Source: Candidatus Niyogibacteria bacterium (GTDB lineage: Bacteria > Patescibacteriota > Minisyncoccia > JACROR01). Taken from it: a DNA stretch of 49,780 nt. The position numbers and the translations under genes are program-made. Below, piece after piece: positions 4,580 to 25,643 of this stretch (its first letter is position 1; each line of letters starts with the position of its first letter). The stretch is from positions 1 through 49,780 of the forward strand of contig JACPLO010000011.1 of assembly GCA_016186495.1 (NCBI GenBank), in the 5' to 3' direction. The notes beneath the pieces were generated by a model, which was not told the origin of the DNA, did not search any database, and saw nothing but the letters and a program-made list of their open reading frames with translations.

Positions 4580-7500
4580 TTATTTTTTCAGCTGCCAAAA
4601 ACCGGTGCCGGCCGGAATCAAGCGGCCGATAATCACATTTTCCTTAAGCCCTAAAAGTTTATCTTCTTTTCCGGCACAAGCCGCGTTTATCAACACTTTG
4701 GAAGTTTCCTGAAAAGAAGCCGCGGAGAGAAAACTGGAAGTGGTCAGCGCCACTTTCGTAATGCCTTTTAGCCAAAGAACGCCTTGAGCCGGTTCTCCTT
4801 TTTCTTTTTTAATCCGTTCGTTTTCTTGAACAAGCATATAATTTTCCACTACATCGCCGATACTGAAAGAAGTGTCGCCGGATTTTTTTATCATCACGCG
4901 GGAAAAAATTTGTTTAACGACCACCTCAATATGTTTGTCGTTTATTGACGCGCCCTGTAAAGTGTAGATTTTACTGACTTCGTTTAAAGCGTAATTTTGG
5001 GCCGCCGCTTCGCCCGCCAATTTGCAAAGAAGAGGAATTTCCACCGCGCCGTCAGAAAGCGGACGGCCTATTTTTATTTCTTCGCCTTTTTGCACTAAAA
5101 GCGCGCGGCCGAATGGAATAACAAATTCCTTGATCTCTGTTTTCTTTTTAGATTTTTTGTCCGACAATTCCGAAAGAATTTTTACCTTTTTTTCTTTGTC
5201 TTTCTCGCTAATTTCAATTACTTGACCGTCAACATCCGAAATAATCGCGGGATTATTCGGTGTTCTTAATTCAAGAATTTCTTCCACTCGCGGAAGGCCC
5301 AAAGTAATGTCGCCGGCCGTGGCGATGCCGCCGGTATGAAAAGTCCTCATCGTCAATTGAGTGCCGGGCTCGCCGATCGCCTGGGCGGCGACAATTCCGA
5401 CTGCTTCGCCTATTTTAACTTTTTCATTATTTCCCAAATCATAACCATAACAAGTCTGGCAAAGACCGCGCAAAACCTTGCAGGTTATCGGCGAACGGAT
5501 AATTAAAGAATTTATTTCCGCGGCTTCAATCGCTTCCGCGTCATCTAAAGTTAAAAGATGGCCGGCTTTAAACCAGATTTTTCCGTTTTTATCTTTAATA
5601 TCTTTAGCCAAAGTCCGGCCAAAAATGCGGAAAGAAAGTTTTTTTCCGTAATCTTCTCCGTCGCGCCGCCTGATTTCAAATCCATCTTTAGTGCCGCAAT
5701 CTTCTTTTTGAATTATTATTTCCTGGGAAACATCCACCAAACGCCTAGTCAGATAGCCGGCGGCGGCTGTTTTCAAAGCCGTGTCCGCCATTCCTTTTCT
5801 CGCGCCATGAGTGGAAATAAAATACTCCAAAACGTTAAGGCCTTCCTTATAAGAAGAAAGGATCGGCAGCTCAATGATTTTTCCGGCCGGATTCCTCACC
5901 AACCCTTTCATTCCCGACATTTGAGAAACTTGGTTCCAATCGCCTCGCGCAGCGGAACTGACCATATTATGGACCGAACCCAAAGGATCAAGAGAAAGAG
6001 GGACCGCTTCATCAACTTTCCGTTTTACATTTGACCAAATTTCAATAATTTTTCTATAACGTTCTTTATCGGTCAAAAGGCCTTCTTCAAATTGGTCCTG
6101 CACTTGCTGAGCCTCTTTTTGCGCCTGATTAATAATTGAATGTTTAACTTCGGGCATGGTTAAATCATCTATTCCCCAGCTGATGCCGGAACGAGTGGCA
6201 TAATTAAAACCGAAAGATTTAATTTTATCTAAAATTTCCGGCGTTTTCTCCGAACCGTAACGGGCGATCAAACGGCGGACAATCTTGCCTAAAGTGCTTT
6301 TTTTAATTTCTTCGTTGATAAAAAGAAAATTATCGGGCAAAATACTGTTGAAAAGCAGACGGCCGGCGCTCGTTTCAAAAATCGTTCCGGCATGCTCGTG
6401 ATATTTAGCCGTTGCGGTCGCCCGGACTTTAATGGGCGCTTGAATATCCAAATATCCCGTATCATAAGCTAAAAGAGCTTCATTCGGCGAAGAAAAAATT
6501 CTTCCCGCTCCCTTTGATTTTTCATTGATTTTCGTCATCCAATAACATCCTAAGACAATATCCTGGGTGGGATTGGTAACCGGCTCGCCCGCGCCGGGCT
6601 TGAGAAGATTTTTTCCCGCGTTCATAATTTCCCGCGCTTCAGTTTGCGCTTCCCGGCTTAAAGGGACGTGCACCGCCATCATATCGCCGTCAAAATCGGC
6701 GTTAAAAGCCTGACAAACCAAAGGATGAAGCTGAATGGCGTTCCCTTCAATTAAAACCGGATGAAAAGCCTGAATTCCCAGACGATGAAGCGTGGGCGCG
6801 CGATTCAATAAAACAAATTTATTTTCTATCGCTTCGTCTAAAGCTCCCCAAACTTCGGGAGATTTTTCATCAATCAAACGATTGGCGCCGCGGACATTAT
6901 GAGCTAATTCTTTTTTAATAAGCAAAGAAATAACAAAAGGCCGAAAAAGTTCCAAAACCATATGCTTCGGCAGACCGCATTGATTTAACTTCAGATCCGG
7001 ACCAACGACAATTACGGAACGGCCGGAATAATCCACTCTTTTTCCTAAAAGATTTTGGCGAAAACGCCCTTGTTTTCCTTTAAGCATATCCGCCAAAGAA
7101 CGAAGAGGCCGCTTTTGGGCTTGAGAAATTACCGCCTGGCCCCGGCGCATTGAATTATCAATCAGCGCATCCACCGCTTCCTGAAGCATTCTTTTTTCGT
7201 TCCTCATAATTACTTCCGGCGCCTTAAGTTCTAAAAGTTTTTTCAGCCGGTTGTTCCGGTTGATCACGCGGCGATAAAGATCGTTGACATCGGAAGTGGC
7301 GTGCCGGCCTCCGTCTAAAGCGACCATCGGGCGAAGAGCCGGAGGAATAACCGGAATAACTTCCAAAAACATCCATTCCGGCCGGCTGCGCGATCTTTTG
7401 AGCGCGCGAACCAGACTCAAACGTTTAAGAATTTTTTTAACATTCGGAGCGCTGGCCTCTTTTTCCTGAATCGTCAATTCCTCTTCTAATTTTTCCAAAT

Positions 7501-8099
7501 CTAAATTCTTGCAGAGATTATACAGCGCTTCCGCTCCGATCTCCGCTTCAAAAACTTCTCCGAAGCGAAGCGACAAACGATGATAAGAAACTTCGTCCAA
7601 GACTCTCAACGGCCTTAAATCATCCAATTCGGATTTTACCCGATCCCGCGCTTCTTTTAAGGATTTCTTTTCTTTGAGACTGCCGGCCACTTTAACTTTT
7701 TCCTTATAATCCCTCTCCAGTATTTTTGAAACTTCCTGCCGCGCCTTTTCGTTGATTTTTGTCACCACGTAGCCGGCAAAATAAACCACCCGCTCCAAAT
7801 CGTTGATGGATATGTCTAAAATCAAACCAATTTTGGAAGGCACTCCCCGCAAAAACCAAATATGAGAGACAGGCGTCGCCAGCTTGATATGGCCCATTCT
7901 TTCCCGCCGGACAATTGATTTTGTCACTTCCACTCCGCACTTATCGCAAACAATTCCTTTATAGCGAATCCGGCGATATTTTCCGCAATAACATTCATAA
8001 TCTTTTTCCGGCCCAAAAACCTCGCGACCAGGAAAGAATCTTATCCGGCGAAGCTAAACGCAAAACTATTGATTTAAGATCAGTGGGTTTTTGTTCCAT
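4580..8099 (-). CDS. rpoC: RNA polymerase beta' subunit, reading frame broken near the N-terminus
   Basis: Catalytic beta' subunit. The metal-binding NADFDGD motif is at 6683-6703, and the second zinc site ('CKVLRGLCQTCYG') is encoded near 5440-5500. The long frame begins only at 7933, but the preceding DNA encodes the conserved start in two frames. From ATG 8099 it gives 'SPDKILSWSRG', then after about 8021 the other frame gives 'EVFGPEKDYECYCGKYR' and 'GIVCDKCGVEVT' with the four zinc-ribbon Cys. Five bases appear lost between the two GGT repeats of an expected GGTGAGGT. Restored length is about 1174 aa, normal for the family. ATG 8099 lies 3 bases after the rpoB stop. A real deletion cannot be told from an assembly error here. 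Confidence 0.93.
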
Positions 8100-8102
8100 A
8101 AT

Positions 8103-11100
8103 TTATATTTTTGATTTATATTTTTCTTCTTCCGTTTTAACCCTCGCCCATTGTTTTTCATCTTCCTTATCTTCTCTGATTTTTACATCGGATTCTTTTA
8201 ATTCTACGTCCAAAGCCAAACCTTTTAATTCATTAACCAAAACTAAAAAAGAAGCTGGTAAATTAGGAGTTTTAAAATCTTCGCCCCGGACAATGGAATC
8301 ATAAACCGCAGTCCGGCCCAAAACGTCATCGGATTTTATGGTAATCATTTCCTGTAAAATATTGGCCGCGCCGTATCCTTCCAGAGCCCAGACCTCCATT
8401 TCACCGAACCGCTGCCCTCCGCCTTGCGCTTTTCCTCCCAAAGGCTGTTGAGTAATCAAAGAATACGGCCCAATAGAGCGCATATGCAGTTTATCTTCCA
8501 CCATATGCGAAAGTTTCATTATATATATATAGCCAACCGCCACTTCATTTTCTAAAATTTCTCCGGTCAAGCCATCGTAAAGCTTAACTTTTCCGGATAT
8601 GGGAAGTTTTGCCTTGGTTAATTCTTCTTTTATTTCCGCGTCGGTCGCTCCCTGCATCACGGGGTTGATTGCCTGATATTTCAGGCAATGAGCCGCCCAG
8701 CCAAGATGCATTTCTAAAATTTGCCCCAAGTTCATCCGCGAAGCAACGCCTAAAGGATTTAAAACGACATCCACGGGCGTTCCATCCGCCAAATGAGGCA
8801 TGTCTTCCTCCGGAAGAACGCGTGAAATTACTCCTTTATTCCCGTGGCGGCCGGCTAATTTGTCTCCGATGGAAACTCTCCTTAATTGAGCCACTTCTAT
8901 TTGAATTCTTTTAATCACTCCTGTTTCCAATTTATCTCCGCGCTCCCGCAAAAATATTTTAATACCAACTATTCTGCCTTCTTTTCCGTGAGGAATCCTT
9001 AAAGAAGTATCTTTTACGTCGCTTACTTTTTCGCCAAAAATAGCGTGCATCAGCCGTTCTTCGGGCGTAAATTCCACCTCCCCTTTCGGAGAAATTTTTC
9101 CCACCAAAATATCGCCCGGCTTGACTTCCGCGCCGATTCTGATGATGCCTTCTTCATCCAAATCTTTTAATTTTTCTTCTCCGACATTGGGAATATCATG
9201 AGTGGTGATTTCCGGGCCCAATTTGGTGTCCCGAACATTACAAATAAAATCTTCAATATGAATGGTCGTAAAACGATCATCTTTTACCAGACGTTCGGAA
9301 AGAATAATGGCATCTTCAAAATTAGCTCCTCTCCAAGAAAGAAAAGCAACCAATAAATTCTGGCCCAAAGCCAACTGGCCGTTATCGCTGGCGGACGTAT
9401 CCGCCAAAAGATCTCCTTTTTTAACTTTATCTCCGGTTTCAACTTTCGTGCGATGGCTGATTGCCGTAAAAGCGTTAGAACGAAAACCAATAATTAAATT
9501 ATAGGTTTTCTCCGCTCCTTTTTTATATTTAACGATAATTTTTCTGGCATCGGCGTAAGTCACAACGCCGTCTCCTTCGGCTAAGATCAAACGGCCGGTA
9601 TCGCGCGCCACCATTTCTTCCGCGCCGGTCGCCACTAAAGGAGCTTCGGGTTTTATGGAAACAATGGCTTGCCTTTGCATGTTAGAACCCATCATCGCCC
9701 GATTGGCATCGTCATGCTCCAAAAAAGGAATTAAACTGGCGCCCATGCCGAACGCCTGTTGGGGCGCGACATCCATAAAATCTATTTCTTCAGCCGGAAT
9801 CATTCCCGGCTGTCCTTTGACTCTGGCTTCCACTAAATCGTCAGTTAACTTCCCGTTGGCGTCTCTGGCTACGCCGGCATGCGCGATATTGTATTTTGCC
9901 TCGTCATGCGCCGTAAAATAAACCAATTCATTAATTATTTTTCCATTTTTCACGCGGCGATAAGGCGTTTCTAAAATACCGTAAGAATTAACTCTGGAAT
10001 ATCCCGCCAAATAAACAATCAAACCGATGTTTCCTCCTTCCGAAGTGGTAATCGGACAAATTCTTCCGTAATGGGAAGGATGGACGTCTCTAACTTCAAA
10101 TCCCGCCCGATCGCGGGTTAATCCGCCCGGGCCTAAAGCGGAAAGCCGGCGCAAATGTTCCAGCTCATCCAACAAATTCTTCTGGCTCATAAATTGAGAA
10201 AGTTGGTTATTAATGAAAAAATCTTTCAAAATAACGGAAAAATGGCGGGAATTAATAAGTTGGGACGGCGTCAGCAAATCAATCTCCAAAGTGGACATTC
10301 GATCTTGAATCATCCGGCGCATCTTGGTTAATCCTCCCCGTAATCTTTGCTGGAGCATTTCGCCGACGCTGCGCACCCGCCGATTTCCCAAATGGTCAAT
10401 ATCGTCGGGAATCGCTTGAGGCGTATTATTCAAAACAATGACATAATTGATAATTGCCGTTAAATCTTCCAAATCTAAAGTCCGGCTTTCTTTTTTAAGA
10501 TTAAGCCCTAAACGATTATTAAGCTTATACCGGCCTACCGAAGAAAGATCATACCGTTCCTTGCCGAACATCGCCTCTAAAAGTTCGCGGGCATTTTCCA
10601 CTGTGGCAAATTCGCCGGGCCTGATGCTTTTATAAATCTCTACACAAGCTTCATCCGCGGTCTTCGTGGAATCTTTTTCCAAAGTATTTTTAAGATAAGA
10701 AACCGTTCCGTTGTCTTTTAAAGAAAACGCTTTTTCCATCGCTTCTTTCGTTTCCAGGCCAAAAATCCGCAACAGAGCCGAAACAGGGATTTTTCTTTTG
10801 CGATCAAGGCGCGCGTAAAGCACATTGTCATAATCGGTTTCTATTTCTATCCAGGCGCCGCGCGAAGGAATAATTTTGGCGCCAAAAAGTTTTTTTCCTC
10901 TTAATTCATTGGCGGTGAAATAAACACCGAAAGAACGGGCGAGTTGGGCGACAAAAACTCTTTCCACGCCATTAACCATAAAAGTTCCGCGCGAAGTCAT
11001 TAACGGCAAATCCGCCAAAAAAATTTCCTGTTCTTTTGATTCCCCGGTTTTTTTATTTTTCAGCCGGACTTTAACCCTAAGCGGCACTTCATAAGAGCGA

Positions 11101-20194: not shown

Positions 20195-20230
20195 TTGTTT
20201 TAATATTTGCATTTGTTTTAATATTTACAT
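20195..20230 (-). repeat. 18-bp tandem duplication covering the pncB stop codon
   Basis: 20195-20212 and 20213-20230 are the same 18 bases with one mismatch. The duplicated unit contains the last codons and stop, so 'CKY-stop' is followed in frame by another 'CKY-stop'. Confidence 0.9.
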
Positions 20231-21489
20231 TCCGTAAAAACAGCGGAAGAATCATAATCGCACGCGCTTTTATAACGTTTTATATCTTCCGGAGCGCCAA
20301 TGACTTTGGCTAAATTATCGCTTAATTTTACTAAACCCCGGCCATTAGCTCGAATCGCTTTGACAACAAGAGAAATGGTACGGAGGCCTAAATCATTCGT
20401 CAAATTCGTACCCCAGCCGAATACGCATTTAATTCTCTCGGAAAAACGGTCAAAGAGCCTAAAAATCAAATCAATATCAAGGCCATCGCTGAAAACAATC
20501 ACCTTTTCCCGCGGATTAACCTTATGCTTTTTATAAAAAGCAATAATCTTTTCACCAATTTTAAAAGGATCGCCGGAATCTTGGCGTATTCCTTTCCAAT
20601 TACGCGCCTGTTCGGGCGTCATTACTCGTAAAAAGAAATCCGTTCCAAATGTATCGGACAAAGCTATTGAAAGCCCCGGTCCATACATATTCCACCACTC
20701 ATTCAAACTTTGCAATATAGCTTTTTCCATCCAATCATTCGTCCCATCATCCATTATTCCAGCAAGAGTCTGATCTCTTTCATGGGCATAAGTCCCCATC
20801 GGTGAAAGCCAGTGCTTCTTAGCAAAATATGTATTTGATGTTCCTAAAAATTGAGAAGACGGTAATTCCTCTTTAAGACGTTGGATTACGTAATCCTGCC
20901 ATGCTTTGCTGAATCGCCTTCTTGTCCCAAATTCAATAAAAGTGATATCCGGCCGCTCTTTCAATTTTTTTATTTTCTCTTCCAATCTTAACCGGCCGGT
21001 TTTAAATAAAGCCTCTCTTTCAGCCCGAGTCATTTTTTCCAATAAAGCCCGATTGCGCAATTCACTTACGATTTCCAAACCAATAATTTCCCAATAGGTA
21101 TTTTCAGCCCAAATTCCCGGAAATTCCAGATGAAATTGGCCGTCTCTTTTTTCCAGTTCATATTCCGGCAATCGGAGTTCGCTTAAAAACGCAAGATAAT
21201 CTTCACAAAACATTTTTTCTTGATATTCATTCGTCCCGCGAGAATAATGTTGCCCGGTTTTTTTAAAGCTTAATCTTAATGTCCGAGCATGATCCAATTC
21301 TTCACGCAATTGTTCAATTCTTACTTCCTCGGCAAGCCGAACGCTTTTTGTCCGATTAGTAAGTTTAAAAGTAGTATTTACAGACGGATATAATAAATAA
21401 ATCAACTGTCCCATCGTAAACTTGTAAAAATCAATATCAAGCAATGACCTAATAATCGGTTCATCCGGTTTAAACATTTCAGAATACAT
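20218..21489 (-). CDS. pncB: Nicotinate phosphoribosyltransferase
   Basis: 423 aa. The N-terminal 'LLDIDFYKFTMGQLIY' is the family hallmark. It is followed by 'EFGTRRRFS' and 'LGTSNTYFAKKH', then by 'MGTYAHE' and 'GIRQDSGDPFKIGEKI', which bind the phosphoribosyl substrate. It converts nicotinate and PRPP to nicotinate mononucleotide, so the cell salvages NAD precursors. A strong SD (AAAGGAGG) and a promoter overlapping the preceding terminator precede it, and a good terminator follows: a self-contained unit, unlike the SD-less core genes. Confidence 0.93.
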   Translation of the reverse strand: MYSEMFKPDEPIIRSLLDIDFYKFTMGQLIYLLYPSVNTTFKLTNRTKSVRLAEEVRIEQLREELDHARTLRLSFKKTGQHYSRGTNEYQEKMFCEDYLAFLSELRLPEYELEKRDGQFHLEFPGIWAENTYWEIIGLEIVSELRNRALLEKMTRAEREALFKTGRLRLEEKIKKLKERPDITFIEFGTRRRFSKAWQDYVIQRLKEELPSSQFLGTSNTYFAKKHWLSPMGTYAHERDQTLAGIMDDGTNDWMEKAILQSLNEWWNMYGPGLSIALSDTFGTDFFLRVMTPEQARNWKGIRQDSGDPFKIGEKIIAFYKKHKVNPREKVIVFSDGLDIDLIFRLFDRFSERIKCVFGWGTNLTNDLGLRTISLVVKAIRANGRGLVKLSDNLAKVIGAPEDIKRYKSACDYDSSAVFTECKY

Positions 21490-21527
21490 TTTTATCCTCC
21501 TTTATTTAGTTTTTAAAATCTTGGCTA

Positions 21528-21556
21528 AATTTAATATAAAAACGTTTTTTTGTCAA
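21528..21556 (-). promoter_or_regulatory. Promoter of pncB
   Basis: On the minus strand TTGACA (21556-21551), a 17-base spacer and TAAATT (21533-21528). The -35 box lies in the T-run of the terminator at 21563-21584. Confidence 0.6.
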
Positions 21557-21562
21557 AAAAAA

Positions 21563-21584
21563 CAGGGATTATTTCTAATCCCTG
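21563..21584 (-). terminator. Second terminator after the SPASM/small-protein unit
   Basis: Perfect 9-bp stem CAGGGATTA/TAATCCCTG with a 4-base loop, followed on the minus strand by T8. Confidence 0.85.
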
Positions 21585-21617
21585 CGCCAATTTAATATTC
21601 ATCAAAGTAAAATAAAA

Positions 21618-21647
21618 GGGCGGCTTCGGCTATTGCCTTAGTCGCCC
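21618..21647 (-). terminator. First terminator after the small Cys protein gene
   Basis: On the minus strand GGGCG pairs with CGCCC around an inner GGC/GCC pair, followed by TTTTATTTTAC. It starts about 30 bases after the stop at 21676. With the next hairpin it gives a double terminator. Confidence 0.75.
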
Positions 21648-21675
21648 CTGAATAATGAATGAACTAATCTTCTTC

Positions 21676-21906
21676 TTATTTCTTGAGCTTGGCCAGTTTG
21701 GCCTTTATCTCTTTGAGTTCGGCCGTCAATTCCTTTATCTCTCTGGCTTTTTCTTTCTTCTTTTCTTTTTCAATTTTTTTCCGCTCATACTCAAGATATT
21801 TCCGCGATCCGCGGATTTTTTTTAATTTCTCTTTGCTGATTTCCTTACCCGTTAGAGGGTCAACATAAACCGTGCAAGCGCAATCTCGTTGATCACATGA
21901 TGGCAT
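21676..21906 (-). CDS. Small Cys-containing, Lys/Glu-rich protein next to a SPASM maturase
   Basis: 76 aa, not recognised. The first 17 residues hold three Cys ('MPSCDQRDCACTVYVD'), then 'PLTGKEISKEKL' and a long highly charged helix of Lys, Glu and Leu to the end. There is no signal peptide. A strong SD (AAAGGAGG, 5 bases before ATG) follows the maturase stop by 19 bases, so the two are one operon ended by a double terminator. It could be the substrate of the maturase or a metal-binding protein; the Cys are at the N-terminus, unlike the C-terminal core of most RiPP precursors. Confidence 0.75.
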   Translation of the reverse strand: MPSCDQRDCACTVYVDPLTGKEISKEKLKKIRGSRKYLEYERKKIEKEKKKEKAREIKELTAELKEIKAKLAKLKK

Positions 21907-21925
21907 ATATACCTCCTTTCTCTCC

Positions 21926-23272
21926 TTATTTTTGGTTTTGAGGTTTTTGGTGAAAGTCGTTAAACAATAACGACAATCTTTGTTTCCCTTTCAGTTTGTA
22001 GAGAATAGGAGCAATCTCCTGAAAGGTTCTGCACAAAACACTCTTTTCCTCTTTTTGTTCATGCAAAGGGCAGCCTCCGGCACAAATAAATCGTATGTTG
22101 CAAGAATCACATTCCGGCCTTTCAATCCACAATGGATATTCTTTTTGATTCATTGAGACGGTTAACAGATCTTCTTTATCCCAAATAGTGCCGCAGGATT
22201 TGCCATCCCGAAGTACCGTTTGGCAGACATAAATTGATCCATCCGTATTTAATGTTAAGGCGCCATAACCGGCGTTGCATCCCTGAAATACTGGCCCGCT
22301 CGTCATGAGATTGCAAAAAGCATGTTTGCGATCAAAGTCATAACCGGGATGACTATCCATGTAATTTTCAATGATTTTGTAGCATCTTTTAAGTATCCTG
22401 ACTAATTTTTCTTGCAGACAACCGATGCCAAAATTTATTACCAAATTATATCTGAAAAACAAGTTCTTTTTCAGAATAAACTTGGTAAATTCAGGCAGGC
22501 CATCAAGATTATTTTCAGATACCACAGTCAGGGTCATGGGACGGATACCTTGTTCAATAAGAAGGTTAAGATTTTTTTCGATGGAATTAAAACTTCCATC
22601 GCCGTTAATAAACATGCGGCTCTTGTCGTGAAATTCTCCTAATCCATCCAAAGACACCGAAACCGAACAATTCATTCTTTTTACAAACTCAATCATTTCG
22701 GGTGTAACGATTGTAAGATTTGTAATCAAGACTATGCCGAACTCACAACCGATTTTACCCAACTCGTTTTTAGTGTCTTCCAGATAGCGAGTGTAGTTTT
22801 TTAAAGTTAGTGTCGGTTCTCCTCCTCCCAGCCGCAATGTCACTCTTTTTAATTTTCTCTGTTCGGCGGTTTGGAAGATTTTTTTCTTAAACTGAAGCCA
22901 TACGGCATTACTCATTCGGTTATTGTTTCTCACAATGTAGCAGTAGCTACATTGTAAATTACAGATGTTGCTAGTTTGAACCCAGATACTCATTACTTCT
23001 GGAGGATCCATAAAACACGGAGTAGGAAACTCAGGTGTTTTTTTCAAGAGTCCGGCCGTCAGTAATAAATCAACAACTCCCTCTGCATATGCTTGTGGAA
23101 TGTCTATTTTTTTGATTACGGTATCCACATCACAACCGCCTTCAAATGCTTCAAGAACTTTTATCTGTAACTTGTCAAAAACATCCCACTTTAAGTTTAA
23201 ACTATTCACCACTACTTTATGCTCCGTATCTATATCAACAGTGAAAGATTTAGGACATTTATAATATTTCAC
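21926..23272 (-). CDS. Radical SAM/SPASM peptide or protein maturase
   Basis: 448 aa, GTG start 5 bases after a strong SD (AAAGGAGG). Residues 1-82 look like a PqqD-type winged-helix peptide-recognition domain ('LEAFEGGCDVDTVIKK', 'LLTAGLLKK'). The radical SAM domain has the 4Fe-4S motif C104-x3-C108-x2-C111 ('CNLQCSYC') and 'LGGGEPTL'. The C-terminal SPASM domain has all ligands for two further clusters: C332 and C350 (C-x12-G-x4-C), C388-x2-C391-x5-C397-x3-C401, and C414. Relatives install thioether or C-C bonds in peptides, or oxidise sulfatase Cys/Ser. The next gene encodes a small Cys protein, its most likely substrate. Confidence 0.9.
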   Translation of the reverse strand: MKYYKCPKSFTVDIDTEHKVVVNSLNLKWDVFDKLQIKVLEAFEGGCDVDTVIKKIDIPQAYAEGVVDLLLTAGLLKKTPEFPTPCFMDPPEVMSIWVQTSNICNLQCSYCYIVRNNNRMSNAVWLQFKKKIFQTAEQRKLKRVTLRLGGGEPTLTLKNYTRYLEDTKNELGKIGCEFGIVLITNLTIVTPEMIEFVKRMNCSVSVSLDGLGEFHDKSRMFINGDGSFNSIEKNLNLLIEQGIRPMTLTVVSENNLDGLPEFTKFILKKNLFFRYNLVINFGIGCLQEKLVRILKRCYKIIENYMDSHPGYDFDRKHAFCNLMTSGPVFQGCNAGYGALTLNTDGSIYVCQTVLRDGKSCGTIWDKEDLLTVSMNQKEYPLWIERPECDSCNIRFICAGGCPLHEQKEEKSVLCRTFQEIAPILYKLKGKQRLSLLFNDFHQKPQNQK

Positions 23273-23609
23273 ATACCCCTCCTTTCGTTAATTGTTGAAA
23301 TTTTTAATGTTCAAGCCAAACTTACTGTTTGGTTTATGTTAAAATTAACTTAGCAATAAAGAAATGATTTGTCAAGGCTTTTGGGTAATGTGCACACTAC
23401 ATTAACTATTATTCTAATTTTGAGGTTAAAATTAGATTTTTGTCGTTAATCGAGCGTCAGGCTGGCTGGGAGAGTTTGAGGAAAAAAATTTCTACCCGCG
23501 AGCCGAAGTGAAGTTTTGCCACCCGCGCGAGAGTGCGGAGCCAAACAGAAAAAAGTTTTCGGCGGATTTATTTTTTCTAAAAAATAAGCTATTATCTTAA
23601 TATATATAT
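23273..23609. other. Divergent intergenic region between maturase and peptidase genes
   Basis: No gene seen. The left part is the leader of the maturase, with TTGACA at 23375-23370, a weak -10 (TAAGTT) and a hairpin CCAAAC/GTTTGG at 23316-23332. The centre (about 23455-23545) is a G/C-rich repeat-like patch with ACCCGCG twice (23494, 23521) and GAAGTGAAG. The right part is A/T-rich with TATTAT at 23590-23595, a probable -10 only 14 bases before the peptidase ATG. Confidence 0.6.
23347..23375 (-). promoter_or_regulatory. Probable promoter of the SPASM maturase operon
   Basis: On the minus strand a perfect TTGACA (23375-23370), a 17-base spacer and a poor TAAGTT. The 6-bp inverted repeat at 23316-23332 lies just downstream and could be an operator or leader hairpin. 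Confidence 0.45.
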
Positions 23610-25643
23610 ATGAATACTCCTCAAACTAAAAAAGAAGATATCGTTGAAGAAATAAATGGCATTTCAATTACTGATCCTTATCGTTGGCTAGAAAATAGCA
23701 ATAGTAAGAAAGTAGCAGATTGGATTAACGCGCAAAACCAGTATACAGATTCAATACTTAGAAATGAAAAACAAAATAGGTTTACTGATGAACTAATCAA
23801 GAATTTTAAAGTAGTTAATTTCTCAAATCCAGTTCCAGTAAAAGGACGATATTTTTATATGGAGCGGCAACCAGATGAAGACCAAATGGTTTTGTATGCC
23901 AAAGACGGTTTAGACGGAATGGCCAAAAAATTAGTTGATCCAAATGGAAAGAGAGAGGGCAATACAATCACGATTGATTATTGGTTTCCTGGGTGGACTG
24001 GGAAATACATCGTCTATGGTTTATCCGAGGGTGGCGATGAAATGGCTACTTTATATGTAATGGATGTTGATAAAAATGAAAATTTATCAGAAAAAATTAT
24101 CCATTGCCGTTATTCATCTGTAAGTTGGTTGCCTGACGATTCCGGATTTTTCTACACAAGAAATCCTCGCCCCGGAACAGTACCAAAAAACGAGGAGCAT
24201 CTTCACTCAAAGGTTTATTTTCATAAACTTGGAAATAATCCAAAAAACGATCAGTTAATTTTTGGCAAAGATAGACCGAAGGATGACATGATAAATATTT
24301 CTTTGTCTTTGGACGGTCAACTTCTTGCTATTCATGTCTCACAGAAATGGACCGAGAATGAAATTTACATTTACGATAATCGCAAAGAAACGCTATCTCC
24401 ATTGGTTTTGGATATTCCGGCAAAATTTTCACTCCAATTTCTGGGTGATAAAGCTATTTTGCATACAAATTACAAAGCAAATAATTATAAAATTTTATTT
24501 GCTCAACTAAGTGATTTATTTAAGAAAATTGATGAGTGGCAAGAATTTTTTCCGGAACAAGGAAACCTTTTAGAGTCAATTGCCATAACTGCGGATAAAA
24601 TTCTTTTGGAGTATCTTGTAAATGCGTGTTCCGAAATAATCACACTTGATTATTTCGGTAAAGAAATCGGTAAGGTGCCACTACCACAATTTTCAAGTTT
24701 AGCTGGTATATCAACACGAAGAACAGAAAAAGAATTTTTCTACGGATTGGAATCTTTTACGTTCCCAAAAATCGTTTATAGATTCAATCCGAAAACTCAA
24801 CAATATGAAGAATATAAAATTACCGATAATCCAATCAATCCGGAAAATTACATAATCAAGCAAGAGTGGTTCACCTCAAAAGATGGAACAAAAATTCCAA
24901 TTTTTATTTTTCACAAAAAGGAAGTTGGATTAAGCGGCAAAAACCCAACTATACTTTATGGTTATGGCGGTTTTGCCTCAAACGAGACACCGATCTTTAT
25001 GCAAAATTGGGTTTCCTGGATAGAACGTGGCGGGGTTTTTGCCGTAGCAAACATTCGTGGCGGCGGTGAGTTTGGAGAAAAATGGCATAAAACAGGAATT
25101 AAAGAAAACAAGCAGAACAGTTTTGACGACTTTATATCTGCCGCTGAATATTTAATTTCAAAAAAATATACAGATGTAAATCACCTTGGCATTCTCGGTG
25201 GCAGTAATGGCGGATTGCTCGTCTCGGCGGTTGCAGTACAAAGACCGGATTTATTTAAAGCAGTTTGTTCAAGAGTACCATTGACAGATATGGTTCGTTT
25301 TCCGAAATTTGGAATCGCTGTTAGATGGATACATGAATATGGAAATCCAGAAATCAAAAATGATCTCGAAAAAATTCTAAAGTGGAGCCCTTATCACAAT
25401 ACAAAGAATAATGTTGAGTATCCAAATATCTTGTTTACCACTGCTGACAAAGATACAAGAGTGGATCCACTACACGCCAGAAAAATGACTGCCCTACTTC
25501 AGTCGGTAAATAAGCAAAATAAAGTTCTTTTATTTACTGAAATTGAAGCCGGTCACGGTGCTGGTAAACCAATCTCAAAAATGGTTGAGCTTCAATCTCT
25601 TGTTTTAACTTTTTTTGCTCAAGAGCTTGGATTGAATTGGTAA
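23610..25643 (+). CDS. Prolyl oligopeptidase family serine peptidase (S9A)
   Basis: 677 aa, close to the usual 690-710. The N-terminal 'DPYRWLEN' is the family start, followed by a beta-propeller region. The C-terminal alpha/beta-hydrolase domain has 'GYGGF', the nucleophile in 'GGSNGGLL' (Ser about 531), Asp in 'DKDTRVDP' (about 615) and His in 'EAGHGAG' (about 648). No signal peptide, so it is predicted to be cytoplasmic and to cut short proline-containing peptides. It is one of few plus-strand genes, lacks an SD and starts very close to its -10 box. A hairpin follows 25 bases after the stop. Confidence 0.93.
   Translation: MNTPQTKKEDIVEEINGISITDPYRWLENSNSKKVADWINAQNQYTDSILRNEKQNRFTDELIKNFKVVNFSNPVPVKGRYFYMERQPDEDQMVLYAKDGLDGMAKKLVDPNGKREGNTITIDYWFPGWTGKYIVYGLSEGGDEMATLYVMDVDKNENLSEKIIHCRYSSVSWLPDDSGFFYTRNPRPGTVPKNEEHLHSKVYFHKLGNNPKNDQLIFGKDRPKDDMINISLSLDGQLLAIHVSQKWTENEIYIYDNRKETLSPLVLDIPAKFSLQFLGDKAILHTNYKANNYKILFAQLSDLFKKIDEWQEFFPEQGNLLESIAITADKILLEYLVNACSEIITLDYFGKEIGKVPLPQFSSLAGISTRRTEKEFFYGLESFTFPKIVYRFNPKTQQYEEYKITDNPINPENYIIKQEWFTSKDGTKIPIFIFHKKEVGLSGKNPTILYGYGGFASNETPIFMQNWVSWIERGGVFAVANIRGGGEFGEKWHKTGIKENKQNSFDDFISAAEYLISKKYTDVNHLGILGGSNGGLLVSAVAVQRPDLFKAVCSRVPLTDMVRFPKFGIAVRWIHEYGNPEIKNDLEKILKWSPYHNTKNNVEYPNILFTTADKDTRVDPLHARKMTALLQSVNKQNKVLLFTEIEAGHGAGKPISKMVELQSLVLTFFAQELGLNW

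Follow-up and report, generated by a model that had tools for sequence, protein, structure and literature searches.

A radical SAM/SPASM enzyme and a small Cys-capped coiled-coil protein in a Candidatus Niyogibacteria genome: a candidate enzyme-substrate pair with phage counterparts

What does a SPASM enzyme modify when the gene beside it encodes a small coiled-coil protein that carries its cysteines at the N terminus? This question is raised by a locus in the genome of a Candidatus Niyogibacteria bacterium (654 kb, with 10 radical-SAM matches). The window, the whole stretch of DNA analysed here, is 49,780 nucleotides long and represents one whole contig. An earlier note, based on the letters of this stretch alone, had suggested that the small protein is the substrate of the enzyme and is modified at its N-terminal cysteines.

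The gene pair and its products

The two genes lie on the minus strand, as the earlier note had described. The enzyme gene (21926..23272, 448 aa, GTG start) is followed at its 3' side, after a gap of 19 bases, by the gene of the small protein (21676..21906, 76 aa). The Shine-Dalgarno regions of both genes, AAAGGAGGGG for the enzyme (23275..23285, minus strand, duplex -12.1 kcal/mol) and AAAGGAGGT for the small protein (21910..21919, minus strand, duplex -12.9 kcal/mol), rank second and first among the 35 window genes examined, in agreement with the earlier claim that they are the strongest in the window. The double terminator that had been claimed was also recovered: a first terminator-like hairpin lies 3' of the small protein (21617..21649, minus strand, -18.7 kcal/mol, z = -2.96 against shuffles), and a second hairpin with a T run is located at 21562..21585 on the same strand. 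After these two hairpins comes a NAPRT-like gene with a strong Shine-Dalgarno sequence of its own.

The enzyme possesses an RRE-like N-terminal domain (residues ~1-75), a radical-SAM core (~92-265; Pfam Radical_SAM, 60.7 bits) and a SPASM region (~330-415). Both features that define a radical SAM/SPASM maturase, the CxxxCxxC motif in the core and the C-terminal SPASM cysteines, are present, and C388, C391, C397, C401 and C414 in the SPASM region are invariant among the relatives of the enzyme. In the AF2 model (pLDDT 84), which aligns with CteB over its full length, the N-terminal domain consists of a beta-sheet and three helices and is consistent with a PqqD-like RRE. The description of a complete SPASM enzyme with a PqqD-like N terminus therefore stands, on the Cys motifs and on this modelled domain. 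A total of 84 NCBIfam models matched the enzyme, and none among the matches listed reached its cut-off. The best was the PapB family ranthipeptide maturase NF047865 (112.9 bits, cut-off 340), and the anaerobic sulfatase maturase model TIGR03942 scored 97.3 bits (cut-off 349). The SCIFF model TIGR03974 gave 70.8 bits against a cut-off of 425, and the small protein has three cysteines, not the six in 45 residues of a SCIFF peptide. By its sequence, the enzyme appears to be a SPASM maturase that the curated families do not cover. A role in defence was also considered and rejected, as the viperin-type matches were weak and arose through the shared radical-SAM core.

The small protein, MPSCDQRDCACTVYVDPLTGKEISKEKLKKIRGSRKYLEYERKKIEKEKKKEKAREIKELTAELKEIKAKLAKLKK, consists of MPSCDQRDCACTVYVDPLTGKEIS followed by a long charged helix. 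Its three cysteines, Cys4, Cys9 and Cys11, all fall within the first 11 residues, as had been noted, and the codons from Cys4 to Cys11 (CDQRDCAC; 21874..21897, minus strand), which hold one CX3D (Cys4-Asp8) and a DCAC motif, form the candidate modification site. In the AF2 prediction, residues 1-24 are mostly unstructured, with a low-confidence N terminus, and residues 25-75 form a single helix. Neither the small protein nor its relatives carried a name in any curated family library searched. A search for homologs in the class returned, besides the protein itself, only weak matches, chiefly to the 'FDKKTGKEISPEK' tails of penicillin-binding-like proteins; these tails were judged convergent and discarded as homologs. 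A search for the small-protein pattern covered 384 genomes from the class plus 362 taken from the phylum, two sets that overlap in part; the only match was in the window's own genome.

Counterparts in phages and a shared Cys motif

We searched 2.9 million viral contigs with a DNA pattern, 'SD + MPxCD...C', taken from the small protein alone and separate from the enzyme search. Of its 10 matches, five encode MPSCD coiled-coil proteins (MPSCDGSNCGAC..TEYV; four distinct sequences), and all five genes lie directly 3' of a SPASM gene. On the viral contigs L129-L132, an enzyme 28-30% identical to that of the window is directly followed by a MPSCDGSNCGAC(S/N).. coiled-coil protein with TEYV or TEYI. 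The earlier note had named a lack of linkage in relatives as refuting its idea; instead, the two genes were seen together, in the same order, in five phage contigs, and a precursor gene linked to its modifying enzyme across relatives is what is expected of a RiPP. The genes flanking the phage pairs vary from contig to contig; on L217 they include terminase-, portal- and prohead-protease-like genes, as judged by eye. No protease or exporter common to the inspected phage loci was found beside the pair, and the phage small protein had no match in an annotated phage collection. The window and phage small proteins share M1, P2, S3, C4 and D5, C9, the A-C dipeptide and T-x-Y. The notion that the window is merely a locus without its normal C-terminal Cys precursor, of the kind described below for other Patescibacteria, was abandoned after these phage partners were found. 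The phage enzymes lack the RRE-like domain that is modelled in the window enzyme, which indicates that recognition does not rest on an RRE across the whole group.

Related loci were collected with an alignment query; the window enzyme used as sole query returned none. Within the phylum, the nearest enzymes by BLAST are those of other Patescibacteria (33-36% identity). Beside them lie short peptides whose Cys-rich core is C-terminal (e.g. ECSDCPCPDGDCCTDY) and whose Shine-Dalgarno sequences are very strong, usually together with an HExxH protein, and by sequence these look like conventional RiPP loci. In a maximum-likelihood tree of 73 rows, the window enzyme fell within a clade of nine rows (support 100/98) together with enzymes of phages, of Runella and Spirosoma (Bacteroidota) and of Pseudomonas and Azohydromonas (Proteobacteria). 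The sister of this clade comprises the Patescibacteria RiPP enzymes with Cys-rich precursors (14 rows, 98/93). Within the clade, the grouping of window and phages has weak support (88/40) and includes a long phage branch.

A Cys motif, scored by automated counting as [DN]CxC, C[DN]C or CxC[DN] either beside the enzyme or inside it, was present in 31 of the 37 family loci, against 3 of 37 when the opposite strand was scored and 7 of the 51 SPASM loci from outside the family. The Fisher p of ~3e-11 is indicative only, because the motif was chosen after the family had been viewed and the loci are related, not independent. The motif takes several forms. In Runella and Spirosoma, an ORF of 61-62 aa overlapping the enzyme start contains ..NCDC.., and one Runella precursor, NCDCANDPIRSTYEYVDPKKVTES, is similar to the window's DCACTVYVDPLTGKEIS. 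In Pseudomonas and Azohydromonas, a protein of 167-169 aa has KCPQVCPCN near its end. In the Chloroflexota and in one cyanobacterial and one actinobacterial relative, DCAC (often DCACP, in one or two copies) lies in the N-terminal extension of the enzyme itself, and one Patescibacteria locus (L212) has a separate upstream peptide that ends in QCDCACSPGRITFI. The 'inverted' layout with N-terminal cysteines, which the earlier note had claimed, accordingly holds for the window and the phages, whereas other branches carry the motif at the C terminus. The co-variation of the 'DPLTGKEIS' segment with the enzyme, which the earlier note had suggested as a check, held only in part: no strict co-variation was seen, yet the phages have T-x-Y-[VI], one has DPRT and Runella has YEYVDP, with the rest differing. 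The conserved determinant is the Cys motif, and DPLTGKEIS is partly conserved only.

The spacing to an acidic residue is less uniform. CX3D occurs once in the window protein and two to three times in the Patescibacteria precursors, the phage proteins have CX3N and no CX3D, and the DCACP[DE] extensions of the enzymes contain CX3D/E. The substrates of Runella and Spirosoma have no CX3D and mostly no CX3N either. A CX3D chemistry universal to the family is not supported, as the phage and Runella/Spirosoma candidates are without it.

Several loci deserve mention in their own right. The Pseudomonas and Azohydromonas proteins (L054:2499-3002 and L061:219-728) are GRDP-like, carry the KCPQVCPCN tail at the C terminus and have a SPASM enzyme as well as a putative dioxygenase close by. 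Fused enzymes of the DCAC type occur at L055, L056, L058, L060, L062-L071 and L092, and many of them lie downstream of an AAA/STAND-like ATPase of ~1000-1200 aa with TPRs. On the viral contigs L144, L156, L158, L162, L168, L192, L200 and L205, SPASM enzymes adjoin proteins of 120-200 aa, several of them virion-like, that end in Cys repeats such as CNCNYCTCNCN and CNCDFCPCNC; L205 has about a dozen Cys repeats and two SPASM enzymes. These viral proteins are candidate radical-SAM-modified phage proteins.

The probable substrate and the alternatives

That the small protein is the substrate of the enzyme, as the earlier note had proposed, is strongly suggested by the recurrent adjacency of the two genes and the Cys-x-Cys motif shared among the candidate substrates. 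Thioether formation is the candidate chemistry, held with moderate confidence, and any cellular role of the modified protein can be proposed only with weak confidence. We consider it probable that the pair comprises a CteB/PapB-like maturase and a dedicated small-protein substrate, with a Cys thioether on the N-terminal cap and an intracellular product. Met1 would be removed, with Pro at position 2, and the N-terminal PSCDQRDCAC segment would enter the active site while the charged helix, the TVYVDP segment or both dock onto the enzyme. A thioether would then tie one or more cysteines to a residue close by, the first candidate being Cys4-Asp8, a CX3D of the PapB type. Because no dedicated leader peptidase or exporter adjoins the pair, the modified coiled-coil protein is probably retained in the cell, its N terminus capped by a chemically rigid segment. 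Further points in favour of this reading are the well-supported enzyme clade, the CteB and PapB matches and the strong Shine-Dalgarno regions of both genes. Against it weigh the uneven occurrence of CX3D, the lack of the RRE-like domain in the phage enzymes, the weak window-phage grouping with its long phage branch, the choice of the motif after the family had been viewed, and the presence of this version in a single genome among the Patescibacteria searched.

SPASM enzymes catalyze many types of reaction, and the same pair could instead make a C-C or C-O link with Tyr14 or Asp16, oxidize a Cys in the manner of formylglycine formation or introduce another radical modification. The scores of the anSME- and QhpD-type models (TIGR03942, 97 bits; TIGR03906, 91 bits), the presence of 4k36 among the structural matches and the T-x-Y kept in window and phages fit such a chemistry. 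However, among all candidate substrates nothing is conserved throughout but the cysteines, and CteB, which heads the structural matches, makes thioethers; we regard a non-thioether product as unlikely. It is improbable, in our view, that the small protein is a partner and not a substrate, using the Cys cluster at its N terminus to hold a metal or an Fe-S centre and to pass electrons, or present another substrate, to the enzyme. A CxC-rich N terminus joined to a helix would suit a metal-binding adaptor, and the phage enzymes, being without an RRE, could need a separate one, but the motif also occurs in the leader-core precursors of Patescibacteria and Runella and is fused to the Chloroflexota enzymes, where electron transfer would be less natural.

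The neighbourhood bears on a further scenario, in which an unlinked protease would trim a conventional RiPP precursor ahead of its export. The earlier note had reported that no protease follows the pair, and none was found downstream; a prolyl oligopeptidase (S9; Peptidase_S9_N and Peptidase_S9; 23610..25643, plus strand) does, however, lie divergently upstream. Such a gene is rare in the class (3 of 83 genomes) and might supply the cleavage; at other Patescibacteria loci an HExxH protein adjoins the peptide. The other two genomes with a prolyl oligopeptidase gave no match in the enzyme search, and its role as a required component is not supported. Moreover, the window's genome has no homolog of the L003-type HExxH protein and the inspected phage loci share no protease or exporter, so that the scenario is very improbable. 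None of the NAPRT-like, SPASM and prolyl oligopeptidase genes was found in the one other genome of the family compared; 20218-25643 therefore looks like a variable region, of which the prolyl oligopeptidase is more likely a co-resident than a part of the system.

Known systems and wider loci

The best PDB match of the enzyme is CteB, the SCIFF thioether peptide maturase (5wgg/5why; profile E 5e-33; Foldseek on the AF2 model, 5wgg, E 3.2e-19). CteB likewise has an RRE-like N terminus, radical SAM and SPASM, but its identity to the window enzyme is ~18% and the window substrate is not a SCIFF peptide. PapB/PapA, a ranthipeptide system of the freyrasin type, resembles the pair in being the best NCBIfam match and in the CX3D of the window protein, of which the Patescibacteria precursors have several. 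It differs in that its core follows a leader, whereas in the window a coiled-coil protein presents the target as its N-terminal cap, and the phage and Bacteroidota substrates are without CX3D. QhpD, which acts in quinohemoprotein amine dehydrogenase maturation, is a SPASM enzyme whose target is a protein subunit that stays a protein. Its model TIGR03906 matches residues 37-246 of the window enzyme, but at 91 bits against a cut-off of 453, and the neighbourhood of the pair showed no genes for an amine dehydrogenase. The Patescibacteria loci with a SPASM enzyme, a Cys-rich peptide and an HExxH protein (L003-L006, L209, L210) share the strong peptide Shine-Dalgarno sequence, CxC/CX3D and sister enzymes; they differ in having a short peptide with a C-terminal core and an adjoining HExxH protein, whereas in the window the motif is N-terminal, the small protein forms a coiled coil and an HExxH protein of that type is lacking. 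PapB joins Cys to Asp or Glu in CX3D and also accepts CXnD with spacings of n = 0-6 (PMC9413430). Graspetide loci are known in CPR bacteria (PMC8939145), and NTPase conflict systems include pairs of a SPASM enzyme and a peptide (PMC7159879). A pair of the window type was not found in the open-licence literature searched.

We see about an even chance that these loci form a distinct, unnamed family of SPASM enzymes acting on a 'DCAC'-type motif, which would come from a separate coiled-coil protein as its N-terminal cap in Patescibacteria and tailed phages, as a short precursor, or fused in cis to the enzyme in Chloroflexota among others. On this reading the pair also moves between phage and bacterial genomes, and its product acts inside the cell. 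If so, there are SPASM systems that modify the N terminus of a lasting protein, not a released peptide, and such cap systems are conserved between ultra-small bacteria and phages. Because the fused 'DCAC' enzymes hold enzyme and target in one polypeptide, they offer a direct handle on the chemistry and a route to the roles of radical-SAM-modified proteins in phages.

Further cassettes were observed in three single Patescibacteria genomes (L032, L033 and L034), each with several differing combinations of a radical-SAM enzyme, a short Cys peptide preceded by a AAGGAGGTGAT-type Shine-Dalgarno sequence and an HExxH protein. In L032, two such cassettes are flanked by near-identical genes for Gly/Pro-rich, secreted-looking proteins (110-1624 and 6768-8234), which suggests duplication.
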